Under the pieces are notes generated by a model. That model did no database searches, was not told where the DNA came from, and was given only the letters and a program-made list of their open reading frames with translations. A stretch of DNA of 42,144 nucleotides, from contig NZ_BJNM01000021.1 in the NCBI RefSeq assembly GCF_006539685.1, positions 1 to 42,144 on the forward strand, written 5' to 3'. Source of the stretch: Gluconobacter oxydans. Lineage in GTDB: Bacteria > Pseudomonadota > Alphaproteobacteria > Acetobacterales > Acetobacteraceae. The translations under genes and the position numbers were made by a program. This document shows positions 35,278 through 41,995 of this stretch, in pieces. Numbering within the stretch: position 1 is the stretch's first letter; each line of letters opens with the position of its first letter.

Positions 35278-37914
35278 TCAGTGGGTGCGAGCGGCAAGCC
35301 AGTCGTGGATCTGGCTCTGGGTCGCCTGAACCGCTTCCTGACGGGCAGCAACGGTGTTGAGGGCATGGGCCGTGGCAATCTTGGCTCCGGTCGTCTTGCT
35401 GGAAGACGGATCCTTCTGAAGCTCGGCCAGGATGTCCGGATTGTTGGAATGTCCTGCGATGGCCGGCAGGAACCCGTCCTGTGACCAGGGGGCCAGATGC
35501 GTGCGGATCTCGGCCTCGTGCTGGCGGACCAGCTTCCAGACGAGGTCCGGATTTTCGCTGGCAGAGGCGATCTGTGACAGTGCCATAGAAATACGGCCGT
35601 TCGGAATGGCGCCGCTATAGGCCAGTTCCACGTTGCGACGGATCAGGTCCGGGTCGGAGGCGTTGGCGAGGGCCTGGAACAGGCGGAGCTTGAGTTCGGT
35701 CGCCTGTGTGTCACGGACTTTCTTGGCCATGATTTCGTAGGTTGCGGCGTCGGTATGCTTCATCGCAAGGGCCGAGACCGTACCGACCAGATCAGGACGC
35801 AGGGAGGCCGGGTTCTTCAGCCAGATTGCGAAACGGCGCTTGGCCTCGGCAAGCACGGCCGGGTCATTGAAGGTGCCAAGCGCCGAGATGACGGACGGGC
35901 GCAGCATTGTGTCCAGTACGCTTTCATGCGGCTTCTGGTCCCAGCCGAGACGCTTCAGGACCGGGGCAAGGCGGCTGCGGGCATAGGCCTGGAATGCAGG
36001 GCGGTCCGGGCTGCCGATTTCGTAGAAATCGAGCGTTTCCAGCTTGCCGATGATTTCCTCAAGCGTGGCGATATCGGTCTCATGCTCGGCTGTCAGCCGG
36101 TCCACGAGGTCGAAATAGGAGGACAGCGCGCCATGCCCGGCCCGGAACTGCGCGAACTGGTCGCCAAGGATGTTGGCGCGGTCCACGGGAGCAAATTTGG
36201 AAATCGATGCGGCGATCGGGGCGAAGGCCACGTCGTCGTAATGCACGCGGTAATACCCGCTCTCGCCCAGATCGAGCTTGAGAGGCGCATTGCAGCGGGG
36301 TAGGGTAAAGGTGGCGGGTTCCGCACCAAGCACCAGCTTGCGCGTCTCAAGGCCGGGGCCGCCTGCGACAACCGGAATGTTCCAGGTCAGGGCCTTCGCA
36401 TTCGGGTCGTGGATCGTAAAGCGGCTCTGCGTCAGGGTGTAGGTCGTCTGGCCGTTCCTGCAGACTGCCGCGACATTGACCTGCGGAATCCCGGGCTGTT
36501 CGGTGAAGCTGCGGGCAACCTTGCCGACATCCTGTCCCGATGTGCCGGAGAGCGCGTTCCACAGGTCCTGACTGGTCGCGTTGCCGAAGGCATGGGCCTT
36601 CATATAGGCGCGCATCCCGTCGCGGAAATGGTCTTCGCCAAGCCAGCCTTCCATCATGCGGATGACCAGTTCGCCCTTGCCGTAGCTGATGTCGTCAAAC
36701 GCGGAGTTGGCTTCGCTGACATTGTGGATGACCTGCTGGATCGGATGGGTCGTGGACAGGGCGTCCGTTGCCATCGTGGCTTCGCGGGTCTCGTGCTGAC
36801 GCGGCCAGATGTCCCAGTCCGGGTTCATCTTGTCCGTCGCCTTGATCTCCATCCAGGAGGCAAAGCCTTCGTTCAGCCAGATATTGTCCCACCAGCCCAT
36901 GGTTACCAGATCGCCGGACCACTGATGCGCCATTTCATGCGCAACGACTTCATAGATCAGTTCGCGGGTGCGTGGCGTGCTGTTCTTCGGATCGAACAGC
37001 AGGACGTTATCGATATAGGTCAGCGCGCCCCAGTTCTCCATCGCGCCGGCCTGATAGTTGCCGGGGATGGCCAGCATGTCCATTTTCGGCAATGGATATT
37101 TGATGCCGAAATAGTCGTTGTAATAGGGCAGGATCTTCTCGGCAGCGCTCAGTGCGTAAGTGCCCTGGCTTTCAAGGCCGCTCGGTGCGAAGACGCGGAT
37201 GGGGGTGCCGTCCGCCTTGCCGTCCACGGAGGCCATGTCGCCGGCTACCAGTGCGAGCAGGTAGCTCGACATGCGGGGCGTCGGGCTGAAAGAGACGCGC
37301 TTCGTCTTGGCGTCCTGCTGCGTCGTGCCGATGATCGGCATGTTGCTGACAGCCGCGTATTCGAACGGCAGCGTGACGTTCAGCTGGTAGGTTGCCTTGA
37401 AGGCGGGTTCGTCCCAGCCCGGGAACATCCGGCGTGCGTCCGCAACCTCGAACTGCGTGACGAGCATCCGCTTCGGCTTGCCTGCCGGGTCGGTGTAGTC
37501 GTCAATATAGATGCCGTTCGGCGTTTTCAGGATCGGGCCGGAATACTTGATCGCCAGCGTGTGGACGCCGGCCGGAACGGGTGCCGGAAAATGCAGGGTG
37601 ACGGTTTCGGCGGCATCATCCTGACGGATCTCGGCTTTCTGCGAGTTGTCCAGAAGGGCGCTGGCCAGTTTGAGGCCTGCCTGATTGAGCGTGACGTCGG
37701 CGGTCGGGCTCTTAACCTCGACGCGGACGATTTCATCGCCCTGAAGCGTCAGATGCTCCATGTCGGTCGTCAGATCAATGATGTAGTCCGTCGGCACGAC
37801 GGTCTTGGGAAGCTGACCCGGTGTCGTGGCGAAGGAAAACGTGCCTTCAGCATGGGCGGGGAGCGCAAGGGGCAGGCCTGCAAGCAGCGTTGTGAGAACC
37901 AGAAGACGGCGCAT
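35278..37914 (-). CDS. M1 family zinc aminopeptidase, exported
   Basis: This 878-residue gluzincin aminopeptidase has the exopeptidase motif GAMEN near residue 290 (QAGAMENWGALTY) and the zinc site H326-E-M-A-H330 with the third ligand E in WLNEGFASWME. An ERAP1-like C-terminal helical domain makes up the last 350 residues. A signal peptide is present (hydrophobic core residues 4-18, cleavage near AHA at 22), so it works outside the cytoplasm, unlike E. coli PepN. It removes N-terminal residues from peptides, complementing the periplasmic M3 enzyme. The ATG has AGGA about ten bases upstream. Confidence 0.95.
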   Translation of the reverse strand: MRRLLVLTTLLAGLPLALPAHAEGTFSFATTPGQLPKTVVPTDYIIDLTTDMEHLTLQGDEIVRVEVKSPTADVTLNQAGLKLASALLDNSQKAEIRQDDAAETVTLHFPAPVPAGVHTLAIKYSGPILKTPNGIYIDDYTDPAGKPKRMLVTQFEVADARRMFPGWDEPAFKATYQLNVTLPFEYAAVSNMPIIGTTQQDAKTKRVSFSPTPRMSSYLLALVAGDMASVDGKADGTPIRVFAPSGLESQGTYALSAAEKILPYYNDYFGIKYPLPKMDMLAIPGNYQAGAMENWGALTYIDNVLLFDPKNSTPRTRELIYEVVAHEMAHQWSGDLVTMGWWDNIWLNEGFASWMEIKATDKMNPDWDIWPRQHETREATMATDALSTTHPIQQVIHNVSEANSAFDDISYGKGELVIRMMEGWLGEDHFRDGMRAYMKAHAFGNATSQDLWNALSGTSGQDVGKVARSFTEQPGIPQVNVAAVCRNGQTTYTLTQSRFTIHDPNAKALTWNIPVVAGGPGLETRKLVLGAEPATFTLPRCNAPLKLDLGESGYYRVHYDDVAFAPIAASISKFAPVDRANILGDQFAQFRAGHGALSSYFDLVDRLTAEHETDIATLEEIIGKLETLDFYEIGSPDRPAFQAYARSRLAPVLKRLGWDQKPHESVLDTMLRPSVISALGTFNDPAVLAEAKRRFAIWLKNPASLRPDLVGTVSALAMKHTDAATYEIMAKKVRDTQATELKLRLFQALANASDPDLIRRNVELAYSGAIPNGRISMALSQIASASENPDLVWKLVRQHEAEIRTHLAPWSQDGFLPAIAGHSNNPDILAELQKDPSSSKTTGAKIATAHALNTVAARQEAVQATQSQIHDWLAARTH

Positions 37915-37953
37915 GAAACGCAGTTCCTTGAAACGGTTGAATGATGAGAAATG

Positions 37954-37966
37954 GAACGGACCGTTC
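37954..37966. promoter_or_regulatory. Palindrome upstream of the M1 aminopeptidase gene
   Basis: GAACGG-A-CCGTTC is a perfect 6-base inverted repeat around one base, 40 bases before the M1 ATG. TetR-type repressors bind sites of this size; no such regulator is nearby. Confidence 0.3.
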
Positions 37967-38039
37967 GTTTTTGTTACGCAGACGATGGCATAGCGTGGTC
38001 ATGCGGAAAAGTGTCTCTCCCTAAAAACCTTGTCATCTC

Positions 38040-38070
38040 TTGACAGGTTGGGGCCTTCACGGCTTTTCAT
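38040..38070 (+). promoter_or_regulatory. Promoter of the fluoride antiporter transcript
   Basis: A perfect TTGACA at 38040-38045 is followed 19 bases later by TTTCAT at 38065-38070, a weak -10. Transcription would then begin just before the riboswitch aptamer at 38080, as expected. Confidence 0.45.
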
Positions 38071-38079
38071 GAGGCAGAA

Positions 38080-38144
38080 GGCAATGGATTCTGCCTGACC
38101 GTTCCCGGTCGAACCGCTTCATCCGGAAGCTGATGATTCCTGTC
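38080..38144 (+). promoter_or_regulatory. Fluoride riboswitch (crcB motif) aptamer
   Basis: The conserved parts of the fluoride aptamer occur in order and spacing. A stem GGCA/TGCC (38080-38083 with 38092-38095) closes an 8-base loop beginning with ATG. A later A-A-C linker (38112-38114) precedes a second stem GCTTC/GAAGC (38116-38120 with 38126-38130), followed directly by TGATG (38131-38135). The loop segment GGATTC can pair with GATTCC at 38135-38140 in five of six positions, forming the known pseudoknot. A small extra hairpin (38097-38101 with 38106-38110) is inserted between stem 1 and the linker. The downstream gene is a fluoride-type CLC, which independently supports the call. Confidence 0.88.
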
Positions 38145-38170
38145 CCTCGTCCCCTTTGGACAAGACAGGA
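38138..38170 (+). promoter_or_regulatory. Riboswitch expression platform sequestering the ribosome binding site
   Basis: TCCTGTC (38138-38144), the 3' edge of the aptamer including part of the pseudoknot strand, is exactly complementary to GACAGGA (38164-38170), which contains most of the Shine-Dalgarno AGGAG. GTCC/GGAC (38149-38152 with 38158-38161) can stack inside. Fluoride binding, by holding the pseudoknot, should release the site and turn translation on. Confidence 0.7.
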
Positions 38171-38184
38171 GAACTGCGTCCGTT

Positions 38185-39525
38185 ATGAGTGAACTTCAGA
38201 ATCAGCCCCGTTTTCCCGGTATTTTCAGCCTTATGCGTCTGAGCGCGGTGCTTGTTGTGCTGTCGGTCTGTATCGGGAGTGCCTGTGCCCTGTTCCTGTG
38301 GCTTCTGGAACGCGCCACTTCGCTGCGGATCGAGCATCCGGTGCTGCTGTTCGGGCTTCCGTTGGCGGGTGTGGCGGTCGGTCTGTGTTACTTCTGGTTC
38401 GGCCGCGACGTTGAGGCCGGGGCGAACCTGATCGTGGATGAAATCCATGAACCGGGCGCGGGCGTTCAACTGCGGATGGCGCCGTTCGTGCTGATTGCCA
38501 CGGTAGTGAGCCATCTGTTCGGCGCTTCCGTGGGACGGGAAGGGACCGCGATCCAGGTCGGAGGAAGTCTGGCGAGTGCCACGGCCAGACTGTTCAGGCT
38601 GCGGGCGCCGGAAACCTGTGTTCTGCTGACATGCGGCATTGCAGCGGGATTTGGTGCCGTTTTCGGGACACCCATCGCTGGCGCCGTGTTCGCCCTTGAA
38701 GTCCTGACGCTCGGGCGGCTGGACTACCGTTTTCTTCTTCCCGCCGCGATGTCATCGATCATTGCGGACTGGGCCTGCCGCGCCTGGGGCATCCATCATG
38801 CGTCCTATCCGCTGGTGTTTCAGGGGACGCTGAATTCTGATGGCTCCCTCTCGCATGTGGACATCATGCTTGTGGTGCGCGTTGCCATCGCCGCGCTGGC
38901 ATTCGGGCTGCTGAGCCGGGTGTTCGCCGAGAGCGTGCACCTTCTGGCGGCGTTCATGAAAAAGCTCTGCAAGACACCGTGGCTGCGTCCGGCGATCGGC
39001 GGCATTCTGACCATTCTTCTGGTGATGATCGTCGGAAACCGGGATTATCTGGGGCTGGGCGTTCTGCCTGCTGAGCCGGGTGGGGCGTCGATCGTCAGTT
39101 TCTTCGGGCCGACGATTTATCCGTGGTCCTGGTTCTGGAAGCTGGTTTTCACGGTCACGGTTCTGGCAACCGGGTTCAAAGGCGGTGAAGTCACGCCACT
39201 CTTCTTTCTGGGAGCCGCGTCGGGGAACATTCTCGCCTTCCTGCTGCATGTTCCGGTGGATCTTCTGGCGGCTGTCGGGTTCGTGTCGGTCTTTGCCGGA
39301 GCGGCAAACACGCCGCTGGCTTGTACGCTGATGGGTGTCGAACTCTTCGGGGCCGGGGATATCGTCTATTTCGCGACCGGATGTTTCGTGGCCTATGCCT
39401 GTTCGGGCCATACCGGCATTTATCTGTCCCAGCGGATCGGGACACCCAAGAGCGCGTCCTGGAACCGGGTCTGCGGCATGACATTGCGCGAGGCGCGGAT
39501 GCCGCAGATCCCTGCTAGGGACTGA
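38185..39525 (+). CDS. CLC-F type fluoride/proton antiporter
   Basis: This 446-residue membrane protein has the CLC fold but carries the marks of the fluoride-specific CLC-F branch rather than chloride CLCs. GREGT (117-121, gating glutamate E119) replaces GREGP, and GANLI (79-83) stands where chloride CLCs have GSGIP. GFKGGEVTPLFFLGAASGN (about 330-348) and SGHTGIYLSQ (about 406) are typical of the fluoride branch. It would expel fluoride in exchange for protons across the inner membrane. It is preceded by a fluoride riboswitch whose platform overlaps its Shine-Dalgarno AGGAG (38167-38171). General annotation tools may call it a chloride channel. Confidence 0.93.
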   Translation: MSELQNQPRFPGIFSLMRLSAVLVVLSVCIGSACALFLWLLERATSLRIEHPVLLFGLPLAGVAVGLCYFWFGRDVEAGANLIVDEIHEPGAGVQLRMAPFVLIATVVSHLFGASVGREGTAIQVGGSLASATARLFRLRAPETCVLLTCGIAAGFGAVFGTPIAGAVFALEVLTLGRLDYRFLLPAAMSSIIADWACRAWGIHHASYPLVFQGTLNSDGSLSHVDIMLVVRVAIAALAFGLLSRVFAESVHLLAAFMKKLCKTPWLRPAIGGILTILLVMIVGNRDYLGLGVLPAEPGGASIVSFFGPTIYPWSWFWKLVFTVTVLATGFKGGEVTPLFFLGAASGNILAFLLHVPVDLLAAVGFVSVFAGAANTPLACTLMGVELFGAGDIVYFATGCFVAYACSGHTGIYLSQRIGTPKSASWNRVCGMTLREARMPQIPARD

Positions 39526-39531
39526 CGAACC

Positions 39532-40905
39532 TTACCGTGTCCGGCTGGGTTCGTTGAGCGCCATGATCAGCGCCGCAACCCACCCGATGATGGTCCAGCC
39601 CAGAAGTACGGTTATCATCGCGATCCGGTGCTGACGGATCGTATTGCGGCGGTAGGCGATCAGGACCGGAACAAGATAGAGCGCCAGTCCCAGCGCGCCG
39701 AGAACCGCGAACATGCCCCTGGATTTTGCGGGAACAGCCGAAGCGGAGAGGGCCTGGTTCCTTTCGGGTGGTTGGGCTGCGGCGGATGAGGGCGGGTTCG
39801 GGGCCTCGTGCGGCGTGGCCGCGGGTGGAACGGGCGGGGGCACCGAAGCGGCCTCATGACTGTCCGTCACGGAGGCTACCTGCTCGGGCGTGATGTATCC
39901 CGCGCGGACGAGGAAAAGGGACAGGGCCTGCGGGAAGGGGAGCAGTTCTTTTTCTTTGGCGGAACAGGCATGGCCGTTCTGCTTTTCAGCGGGCGGTTTG
40001 AGATCGCATGCCGAGAGGCCGAAGCCGGACTCTTTCGTGGACTGTGCATGGGCCAGCATGTCGCGCCAGCCTTCCGCGAACCGGCCCATATTGGCCATGG
40101 TCGCGACTTCATAGGCGAGGAATCCATTGGGCTCGAAACGTCCGGACTTGATCCAGTTGCGCCGCCTATCCGCCAGATCCTTCGCAAGATAGTCCTGATA
40201 GGCCGGATCGCGCGTGACGTTTTCAAGGACGCCATCGTGGTAGCGTGCGATGACGACAGGGGCTTCGGACCCGGCATGCGATGCGAAGGCATAGAGGAAC
40301 GACTGATCGGATGTCAGGATTTCCTGTTGCCCATTTCCGGCGATATCCACGACGTCCGGTTCCCCGTCGCCGTCCATCGCTCCAAGTTCGAGATGCTGCC
40401 AGCTTCTGCCGGAGCTTCCATCGGGGCGCAGATCGAATATGGATGTGAGCGAGCAGCAATGGGCGCCCCCTGTATAGGCGGAGACCATGACCTGCGGGAA
40501 AGGCGATGACGCGTCCAGATGCCGTAGAGACATCTTCAGCTGCGCCATGCCGTCATCCTCGGTGCCGTAAGGCGTCAGGGGGAATGAGGCAGGGCGGGAG
40601 TGTGTGTTGCCGGGCTGGCTGAGTGTCAGGAAGGCCATGCTGCACGGAGAAGCCGGGCTGGTATCGGCGTCGGCCCAGACGACGGGCACGTTACAGTGCG
40701 AGGTCCGACGGACGTCCAGAGTGGCAACAACACCCTGTGCGGACAGGGCGGCGTGGGTGCTGGTTCCCATTTCCGCCTGGGCAATCGGTGCGAGCGGATG
40801 GAGTGTGGCAGACTGCGCCGGAACGCCTGTGGCAAGGAGTGCCGGAAGCATGATGCCGATCAGGGCGTTCATCTTGAGAATGGTCTGTCTCCGCTTTCCT
40901 GTCAT
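39532..40905 (-). CDS. Exported protein with C-terminal superinfection-immunity-like membrane domain
   Basis: This protein of about 457 residues begins with a signal peptide (hydrophobic MLPALLATGVPAQSA). The middle is a soluble region with GGAHCCSLTSIFDL and LGAMDGDGEPDVVDIAGNG, acidic repeats like those of FG-GAP or calcium-binding loops. A proline-rich linker follows (PPPVPPAAT). The C-terminus ends with LYLVPVLIAYRRN and VLLGWTIIGWVAALIMAL, two short helices with the G-W-T-x-I-G-W-V pattern of the superinfection-immunity membrane family. The start is uncertain (ATG at 40905, 40935 or 40872). The gene is divergent from a secreted nuclease gene. Overall function unknown. Confidence 0.75.
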   Translation of the reverse strand: MTGKRRQTILKMNALIGIMLPALLATGVPAQSATLHPLAPIAQAEMGTSTHAALSAQGVVATLDVRRTSHCNVPVVWADADTSPASPCSMAFLTLSQPGNTHSRPASFPLTPYGTEDDGMAQLKMSLRHLDASSPFPQVMVSAYTGGAHCCSLTSIFDLRPDGSSGRSWQHLELGAMDGDGEPDVVDIAGNGQQEILTSDQSFLYAFASHAGSEAPVVIARYHDGVLENVTRDPAYQDYLAKDLADRRRNWIKSGRFEPNGFLAYEVATMANMGRFAEGWRDMLAHAQSTKESGFGLSACDLKPPAEKQNGHACSAKEKELLPFPQALSLFLVRAGYITPEQVASVTDSHEAASVPPPVPPAATPHEAPNPPSSAAAQPPERNQALSASAVPAKSRGMFAVLGALGLALYLVPVLIAYRRNTIRQHRIAMITVLLGWTIIGWVAALIMALNEPSRTR

Positions 40906-41128
40906 GCGGGCTCTGTGCTCCGCAGCATCAGGCATATCCCGACTTTCCTCTGTAACGCCAATGGAGGATGCGGAGTTTTCATCTCCTGTAAGGAGAAGCA
41001 TCCCGGAAAGGGGGATGGCTTCTGAAGAAAGAAATTGGAAAATCAATCGGTTGTGCGGGGTTCCCTGATCCACTAACACCGGGGCAGTCCCGGAATGGAT
41101 ACTGCGGAACCGGGTATGCGAGGTATTA

Positions 41129-41995
41129 TTGAATTTCCTGTCGTATCTTCCGATCTGTGCTCTTCTTGTCGTGCTTCCGGCGCAGGCTGCGTCCTGTCCG
41201 GATATGTTCGCTGATGGTGTTGCACCCCAGGTGCTGAATGAAACGCTCCGGATCGGGACGGTTCAGCTGTGTAATGCGGATTATGCGGTGCTTGCTTCGG
41301 AAAGCACGAAGGGACCGCTATGGTCGGCCGAGGATCTGACGGAAGAAAATCTGGAAATCGCGGACCGCACGCGCCGGCAGGGGAGTTTTTACCCTGATGA
41401 GCGTCTTCCTGTAAGCATGCGGGCAGCCCTCGAGGACTACACGTCTTCGGGTTTCGATCGCGGGCACATGACACCCAGCGGAGACGAGCCCGGTGTGCAG
41501 GCACAGCAGCAGTCCTTCCTGCTGTCGAACATCGTCCCGCAGACTGCGGAGCTGAACCGGGGGCCATGGGAAGGGGTGGAGAGCGCTGTTCGGGGATGGG
41601 CCCGGCAGGAAGGGGAAATCTTTGTCGTGACCGGACCGGGTTACGATCCGGATCAGACCCGGACGATCGGGGCGGGGCGTATTCCGGTGCCTGCCGTGAC
41701 CTGGAAAGCGATCTATGATCCGGCGGCTAACGGGATGGGGGCGTATGTGTGTCTGAACACGCGCCGTCCGACCTGCCGGATTACGAGTGTTGCGCTTCTG
41801 ACCGAGCTGGTGGGGATCGATCCGTTTCCCGCACTTCCGGCATCGCTGAAGGATCACGTCAGTGCCATGCCGCCGATCAGGGAAACGCCGGAAGCCCTTT
41901 CGAGACAGCCGCGCTCGCGGGAACTGCTGCAGGAATGGGGATCGAAAGCGGCCCAGAAGGCTCTCAAGGCCCTTCTGAAAGCGCTCGTGCAGTAG
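41129..41995 (+). CDS. Secreted DNA/RNA non-specific endonuclease (NUC1 family)
   Basis: This 288-residue protein is a beta-beta-alpha-metal nuclease related to Serratia nuclease. The active-site motif D110-R-G-H-M (FDRGHMTPSGD) supplies the general-base histidine H113. LLSNIVPQTAELNRGPW carries the metal-binding asparagine of the family (N-x-x-P-Q-x-x-x-x-N). IFVVTGPGY is the conserved following strand. A signal peptide (core residues 4-19, cleavage near AQA) indicates export. The start is TTG at 41129 with GAGG eight bases upstream. It could scavenge nucleotides from extracellular DNA or attack foreign DNA in the periplasm; the sequence does not decide. Confidence 0.92.
   Translation: MNFLSYLPICALLVVLPAQAASCPDMFADGVAPQVLNETLRIGTVQLCNADYAVLASESTKGPLWSAEDLTEENLEIADRTRRQGSFYPDERLPVSMRAALEDYTSSGFDRGHMTPSGDEPGVQAQQQSFLLSNIVPQTAELNRGPWEGVESAVRGWARQEGEIFVVTGPGYDPDQTRTIGAGRIPVPAVTWKAIYDPAANGMGAYVCLNTRRPTCRITSVALLTELVGIDPFPALPASLKDHVSAMPPIRETPEALSRQPRSRELLQEWGSKAAQKALKALLKALVQ

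Follow-up and report, generated by a model that had tools for sequence, protein, structure and literature searches.

A fluoride riboswitch that probably turns on translation of a CLC-F-like antiporter gene in Gluconobacter oxydans

The window, a stretch of 42,144 nucleotides of Gluconobacter oxydans DNA, carries a fluoride riboswitch aptamer and, starting 35 bases after the end of the riboswitch match (ATG 38185), an ORF that codes for a CLC-F-like antiporter (Table 1). The aptamer is the sole Rfam match within the window at the gathering threshold, and the genome to which the window belongs (G000, 2.7 Mb in 107 contigs) contains a single fluoride riboswitch match. Further along, a long ORF on the reverse strand (39532-41079) matches the superinfection immunity domain PF14373 at its C-terminal end, and it adjoins a DNA/RNA non-specific endonuclease gene (PF01223) on the forward strand (41129-41995).

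Table 1. Positions in the window of the riboswitch parts, of the putative expression platform and of the downstream gene.
Feature	Position	Strand	Basis or remark
Probable -35 element, TTGACA	38040..38045	+	recurs in Gluconobacter leaders
Fluoride riboswitch aptamer	38071..38149	+	Rfam RF01734
P1 stem (38079-38083/38092-38096) and loop AUGGAUUC	38079..38096	+	Rfam alignment, pair counts
Loop AUG	38084-38086	+	
5' pseudoknot strand GGA, inside loop AUGGAUUC	38086-38088	+	
Extra 5-bp hairpin GACCG-UUCC-CGGUC (GACCGTTCCCGGTC), between P1 and the AACC linker	38097..38110	+	unpaired insert in the Rfam alignment
AAC linker	38112-38114	+	
P3 stem (38116-38120/38126-38130)	38116..38130	+	Rfam alignment
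UGAUG	38131-38135	+	
3' pseudoknot strand UCC	38138-38140	+	
UCCUGUC, 3' pseudoknot strand (UCC) and anti-Shine-Dalgarno strand	38138..38144	+	exact complement of 38164-38170
Inner hairpin GUCC-CCUUU-GGAC of the sequestering stem	38149..38161	+	MFE of 38136-38172
GACAGGAG, sequestered strand with Shine-Dalgarno AGGAG at 38167-38171	38164..38171	+	13 nt before ATG
CLC-F-like antiporter gene, 446 aa, motifs GANLI, GREGT, GEVTP	38185..39525	+	homology

The covariance search with the crcB RNA model, which the initial annotation had named as a check, is significant: RF01734 scores 41.6 bits (E 2.7e-8) against a gathering cut-off of 34. All features of the family (P1, P3, the GGA/UCC pseudoknot, AAC and UGAUG) are present, and each of the parts that the initial annotation had read from the sequence, the loop ATG included, lies at the place claimed for it. 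It is hardly credible that we are looking at a decayed or non-functional aptamer kept by descent. A score of 41.6 bits is only moderate, and three Gluconobacter matches fall below the Rfam cut-off, but a covariance model that includes the insert described below gives the window 83.4 bits (the window being one of its training rows), and 22 columns are invariant among the 50 aligned insert-bearing aptamers. Two other pairings were considered and rejected. A longer 5' helix, AGGCAGAA/UUCUGCCU (38072-38079/38089-38096), appears in a fold starting at 38071; many relatives do not preserve its upstream strand, and the helix would fall at the probable start of the RNA or ahead of it. In unconstrained folds the start codon pairs with the P3 region; this pairing was set aside because both sequences vary among relatives when compared by eye.

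The aptamer shares with the crcB motif the conserved loop, the AAC linker, UGAUG, the pseudoknot and a score above the curated cut-off, but adds to it a covarying hairpin, GACCGTTCCCGGTC, in the connector between P1 and P3, which the Rfam alignment treats as an unpaired insert and which was absent from the initial annotation. Published work names the two stems P1 and P3, with J1/2 between them (PMC11077080, in the portion accessible to us), and this numbering suggests that the original consensus had an optional P2. In an alignment of 53 rows, composed of 50 insert-bearing and 3 ordinary aptamers of the same loci and fitted to the structure, four of the five connector pairs change on both sides and 90.4% of the cells are paired. 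The covariation score of the whole structure was reached by none of 500 shuffles, a comparison in which the alignment is fitted to the structure and the shuffles ignore relatedness.

When the connectors were folded, a hairpin of at least three pairs was found in 40 of 41 CLC-linked aptamers of Gluconobacter and other Acetobacteraceae (the exception being L055) versus 11 of 55 others. The connector is too short for a hairpin in 41 of these 55 non-CLC aptamers, and L098, L114 and L120 were left unparsed. As the Acetobacteraceae aptamers were taken mainly from the longer matches (65-88 nt, plus three of 62-64 nt), these shares are not estimates for the family. The set of 96 aptamers excludes L028-L030 (Gluconobacter, 25-28 bits), three of the five G001 matches, and L081, which repeats L058.

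We had considered that the connector hairpin might be special to the Acetobacteraceae, and this was rejected. The insert-including model finds matches in 16 of 385 genomes of the class and in 34 of 398 genomes of the phylum (the draws overlap). Among 17 of those loci inspected by eye, a connector hairpin is seen in two from other alphaproteobacteria (L121, L122) and four from other Proteobacteria (L139, L140, L146, L147), and less clearly in L131; the remainder look like ordinary aptamers or doubtful matches. Because similar inserts thus occur in other Proteobacteria, the hairpin is not unique.

The initial annotation had also noticed that TCCTGTC, the 3' strand of the aptamer, is complementary to a GACAGGA that overlaps the Shine-Dalgarno sequence. 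The match is exact, all seven positions of 38138-38144 pairing with 38164-38170, so that an aptamer strand pairs with the Shine-Dalgarno AGGAG in an alternative fold. The pseudoknot and the anti-Shine-Dalgarno pairing are mutually exclusive, since both use the same UCC. The hairpin formed by 38136-38172 has a free energy of -14.8 kcal/mol compared with -7.45 +/- 2.36 for dinucleotide shuffles (z -3.1), and one in 200 shuffles was as good. The spacing of 13 nt to the ATG is long, at the upper end of the 3-14 nt given for G. oxydans in the accessible part of PMC5756330.

Four of the seven pairs (UCCU/AGGA) come free, because UCCU is part of the consensus of the aptamer, and AGGA of that of Shine-Dalgarno sites. 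The informative part of the helix is therefore the GUC/GAC segment (3 of 7 pairs), the inner 4-bp hairpin and the conservation of the pairing, and the remaining pairs were examined by comparison among relatives. In Gluconobacter, we aligned 18 of the 24 CLC leaders, the 6 most divergent being left out; 126 of 126 cells of the switch helix are paired, compared with 40-57% in slid controls. Five of the seven pairs are invariant and none has changed on both sides, and the helix is thus conserved, not covarying, within the genus. The inner hairpin is replaced in many relatives by other sequences that still pair.

Of 38 CLC leaders of the Acetobacteraceae, 36 pair UCCU with a strand that lies no more than 24 nt upstream of the start codon, compared with 6.3 expected when the whole stretch from UCCU to the start codon is shuffled. 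Three of the 41 leaders (L055, L089, L101), whose start codon is more than 60 nt away, were dropped before the pairing and openness analyses. The two misses, L097 and L102, may owe their status to a wrongly assigned GTG start and were kept as misses. Moreover, at the four positions adjacent to the core, cognate strands form 2.55 pairs and swapped strands 2.14 (permutation p 0.0012, 20 distinct leaders). The leaders are related sequences, and their counts are consequently not independent.

The pairing could in principle be an incidental by-product of a genuine aptamer, that is, the unavoidable match of UCCU with AGGA. The inherent 4-bp core, the lack of covariation inside Gluconobacter and the absence of any gain for several Acetobacteraceae leaders in the static folding model described below would all agree with this explanation, but the 36 of 38 leaders and the advantage of cognate over swapped extensions, both obtained on related sequences, together with the z score of the hairpin, speak against it and make it improbable.

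A separate feature of these leaders is a GGAGUGCGUCC-like tail following the anti-pseudoknot strand, present in 24 of the 96 leaders versus 0.81 expected from shuffles that leave relatedness uncorrected. The window tail (38168-38182) has a looser form, GGAGAACUGCGUCCG, and is outside the 24.

How would this arrangement work? We propose an RNA that begins a short way upstream of the aptamer. As long as fluoride is absent, the pseudoknot would be unstable, and the strand UCCUGUC would pair with GACAGGA in a hairpin covering the Shine-Dalgarno sequence. Fluoride and magnesium would lock the GGA/UCC pseudoknot, making UCC(U) unavailable to the Shine-Dalgarno sequence, which would be released; ribosomes would then load and the exporter would be made. 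It is highly probable, in our judgement, that the element is a fluoride riboswitch through which a CLC-F-like fluoride/proton antiporter comes to be translated. Support for this translational-ON model is good, short of proof. Observed are the match to the aptamer, both of the exclusive pairings, the conservation of the second of them and the homology of the exporter; we infer that the RNA binds fluoride, that it switches ON, that it does so at the level of translation, and where the RNA starts.

The proposed start agrees with a TTGACA or TGACA that 24 of 25 Gluconobacter leaders carry at a distance of 40-46 bases ahead of the aptamer loop. A weak -10 element would lie near 38063-38069, and transcription would then start just before P1. 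A generic sigma-70 scan of 37900-39700 found no promoter; a lax -10 consensus has been reported for G. oxydans (PMC5756330). In another genome (G014), the riboswitch of L007, near 1430-1500, apparently stands directly after the 3' end of a tRNA, and no TTGACA box is seen there by eye.

The initial annotation had described a translational switch in front of the CLC gene, and the comparison supports it, with the anti-Shine-Dalgarno pairing kept in 36 of 38 leaders and no intrinsic terminator recognised in the 41 CLC leaders screened. This screen of Gluconobacter and Acetobacteraceae was crude: a GC stem with a T tract behind it was found in 0 of 41 CLC leaders versus 4 of 55 other fluoride leaders, the former being read as far as the start codon, for 60 nt at most, and the latter over 90 nt. 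Likewise, when 37900-39700 was scanned, no terminator turned up in the interval 38149-38185. The same aptamer, with the same ON direction, could also act mainly on transcription, sequestration being the trigger for an untranslated leader to be cut short by Rho or degraded. Four G. oxydans riboswitches of other classes (FMN, glycine, SAM-II and TPP) were described as having leader-rich coverage, and termination without a clear terminator was noted there as possible (PMC5756330). On the other hand, no intrinsic terminator was seen in the CLC leaders or in the interval 38149-38185, two results that are compatible with termination by Rho, and the fluoride element of strain 621H shows no excess of leader coverage in the accessible part of the same study, but it is a different, crcB-linked element. 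We regard mainly transcriptional control as unlikely and favor translational control.

We then have to ask how far static folding reproduces the two states. The openness of the window Shine-Dalgarno sequence is modelled at 0.05 in the free fold and at 0.50 when the 3' strand and the loop of the aptamer are held. The gain of the window is matched by 13% of its spacer shuffles, and its closed state by 7%. Over the 38 leaders the mean openness is 0.10 free and 0.31 held, compared with 0.23 and 0.38 for spacer shuffles; the gain reaches at least 0.5 in three leaders and is absent in several. The anchor used in this model is looser than that of the pairing count and misplaced at least L104 and L107. 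When the aptamer stems are fixed and the leader stops at the ATG, openness in the window rises from 0.11 to 0.45, or to 0.32 if UCC alone is held. Extending the leader to 38200 gives 0.56 (0.47 with UCC alone), and adding coding sequence up to 38230 brings it down to 0.20 (0.05 with UCC alone).

These models lend good support to the OFF state, and in the modelled ON state static folding releases the Shine-Dalgarno sequence in part only. The mutually exclusive helices of the initial annotation stand, both pairings being present and the second conserved, but its statement that the site is free with fluoride exceeds what static folding gives: the held site is about half open, and lengthening the modelled stretch further into the coding region covers it again. 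How far the site opens in the ON state may depend on the order of co-transcriptional folding and on ribosomes.

Homology places the gene behind the riboswitch, previously read as a CLC gene, with the fluoride type. It matches PF00654 (Voltage_CLC, E 1.9e-64), and its best PDB relatives by sequence are 6d0j (E 6.5e-55), 6d0k and 6d0n, a CLC-type fluoride/proton antiporter, the chloride CLC 1kpl being far weaker (E 2.1e-6). Its nearest named relative, from G. potus, is 99% identical over residues 1-443. The motifs given for fluoride-type CLCs are GREGT/V, GEVTP and GNNLI or GMGLI (PMC11139923, accessible portion). GREGT and GEVTP are both present; the third motif is not matched in the window protein, which reads GANLI at this place, a substitution missed by the initial annotation. 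This third motif is not strict, because the solved CLC-F 6d0j itself reads GMNLV, and the alanine of GANLI aligns with its methionine. Of 24 Gluconobacter riboswitch-CLC loci, 13 read GANLI, as the window does, and the other 11 GNNLI; identity between the window protein and the GNNLI forms of the genus is 53-64%. The protein is a CLC-F by descent, and its transport specificity is a prediction, hence our term CLC-F-like.

Each of the 26 Gluconobacter genomes has a riboswitch match at E 0.001 (23 are over the cut-off), 25 have a CLC gene of at least 54% identity, and in all 25 a fluoride riboswitch lies directly before the CLC-F-like gene. The exception, G011, has CrcB and distant CLCs only, and its riboswitch adjoins, on the 5' side, an alginate-export-like porin gene. 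CrcB is found in two of the 26 genomes (G001 and G011), and a search for it in the genome of the window gave no match. Beyond the genus, at least 103 of the 299 sampled Acetobacteraceae genomes have a riboswitch match.

Some relatives carry many fluoride riboswitches. Among the matches listed, there are at least 14 in G118 (7% contaminated), 12 in G205, 10 in G273 (77% complete) and 9 in G242, all Acetobacteraceae. In G001 (contig C72), five lie within about 6 kb (L160, 4190-10306), next to genes for an enolase, an alginate-export-like porin, a universal-stress-like protein followed by CrcB, a histidine phosphatase and a CLC-F-like protein with GNNLI. This region is a fluoride-resistance island in a relative. 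At two loci (L022, 1501-3079, and L160, 4398-6225), the riboswitch stands directly before the gene of the alginate-export-like outer-membrane porin (PF13372), an association of which we found no mention in the accessible part of the open literature searched.

Translational fluoride riboswitches and riboswitch-linked CLC-F proteins are already known, and the window holds a good instance of a fluoride riboswitch before a CLC-F-like gene, with probable translational control. Fluoride riboswitches from P. syringae and B. pseudomallei have been employed as translational controls, with no fluoride-dependent termination reported (PMC13273304), and those of P. syringae and B. thailandensis have been used in reporters, with fluoride induction for the B. 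thailandensis one (PMC8814607); this is what the accessible portions of both papers give. The mode that we propose in Gluconobacter is the same, but the host is another one and the expression platform of the window is read from sequence and comparison. Riboswitch-controlled CLC-F antiporters are on record (Stockbridge 2012, as summarised in PMC11139923, partly accessible). The window likewise combines GREGT, GEVTP, the CLC fold and a riboswitch in front, but has GANLI as selectivity motif in place of GNNLI or GMGLI. Finally, the fluoride element of G. oxydans 621H, of the same genus and RNA family, is assigned in the accessible part of PMC5756330 to a gene annotated CrcB, with similar coverage of leader and gene and a start site that was not found, whereas the window element precedes a CLC-F-like gene.

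In conclusion, the riboswitch precedes the sole gene for a probable fluoride exporter that was recognised when its genome was searched for CrcB and CLC, and probably acts through a Shine-Dalgarno-sequestering platform. It offers a compact, easily read circuit from fluoride to exporter in an acetic acid bacterium that gave no CrcB match, and a comparative case for translational control across the Acetobacteraceae. We tentatively suggest, as a conjecture, a Gluconobacter clade with a natural alanine at the anion-selectivity position of a riboswitch-linked CLC-F-like protein and no CrcB found; the covarying connector hairpin of the aptamer may in addition tune the stability of the pseudoknot. If transport by the GANLI form stays fluoride-selective, the asparagine/methionine rule for CLC-F selectivity would be incomplete; if it does not, the riboswitch would regulate a less selective halide exporter. 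The GANLI variant and the connector hairpin are two direct handles on how CLC-F proteins and fluoride aptamers work.
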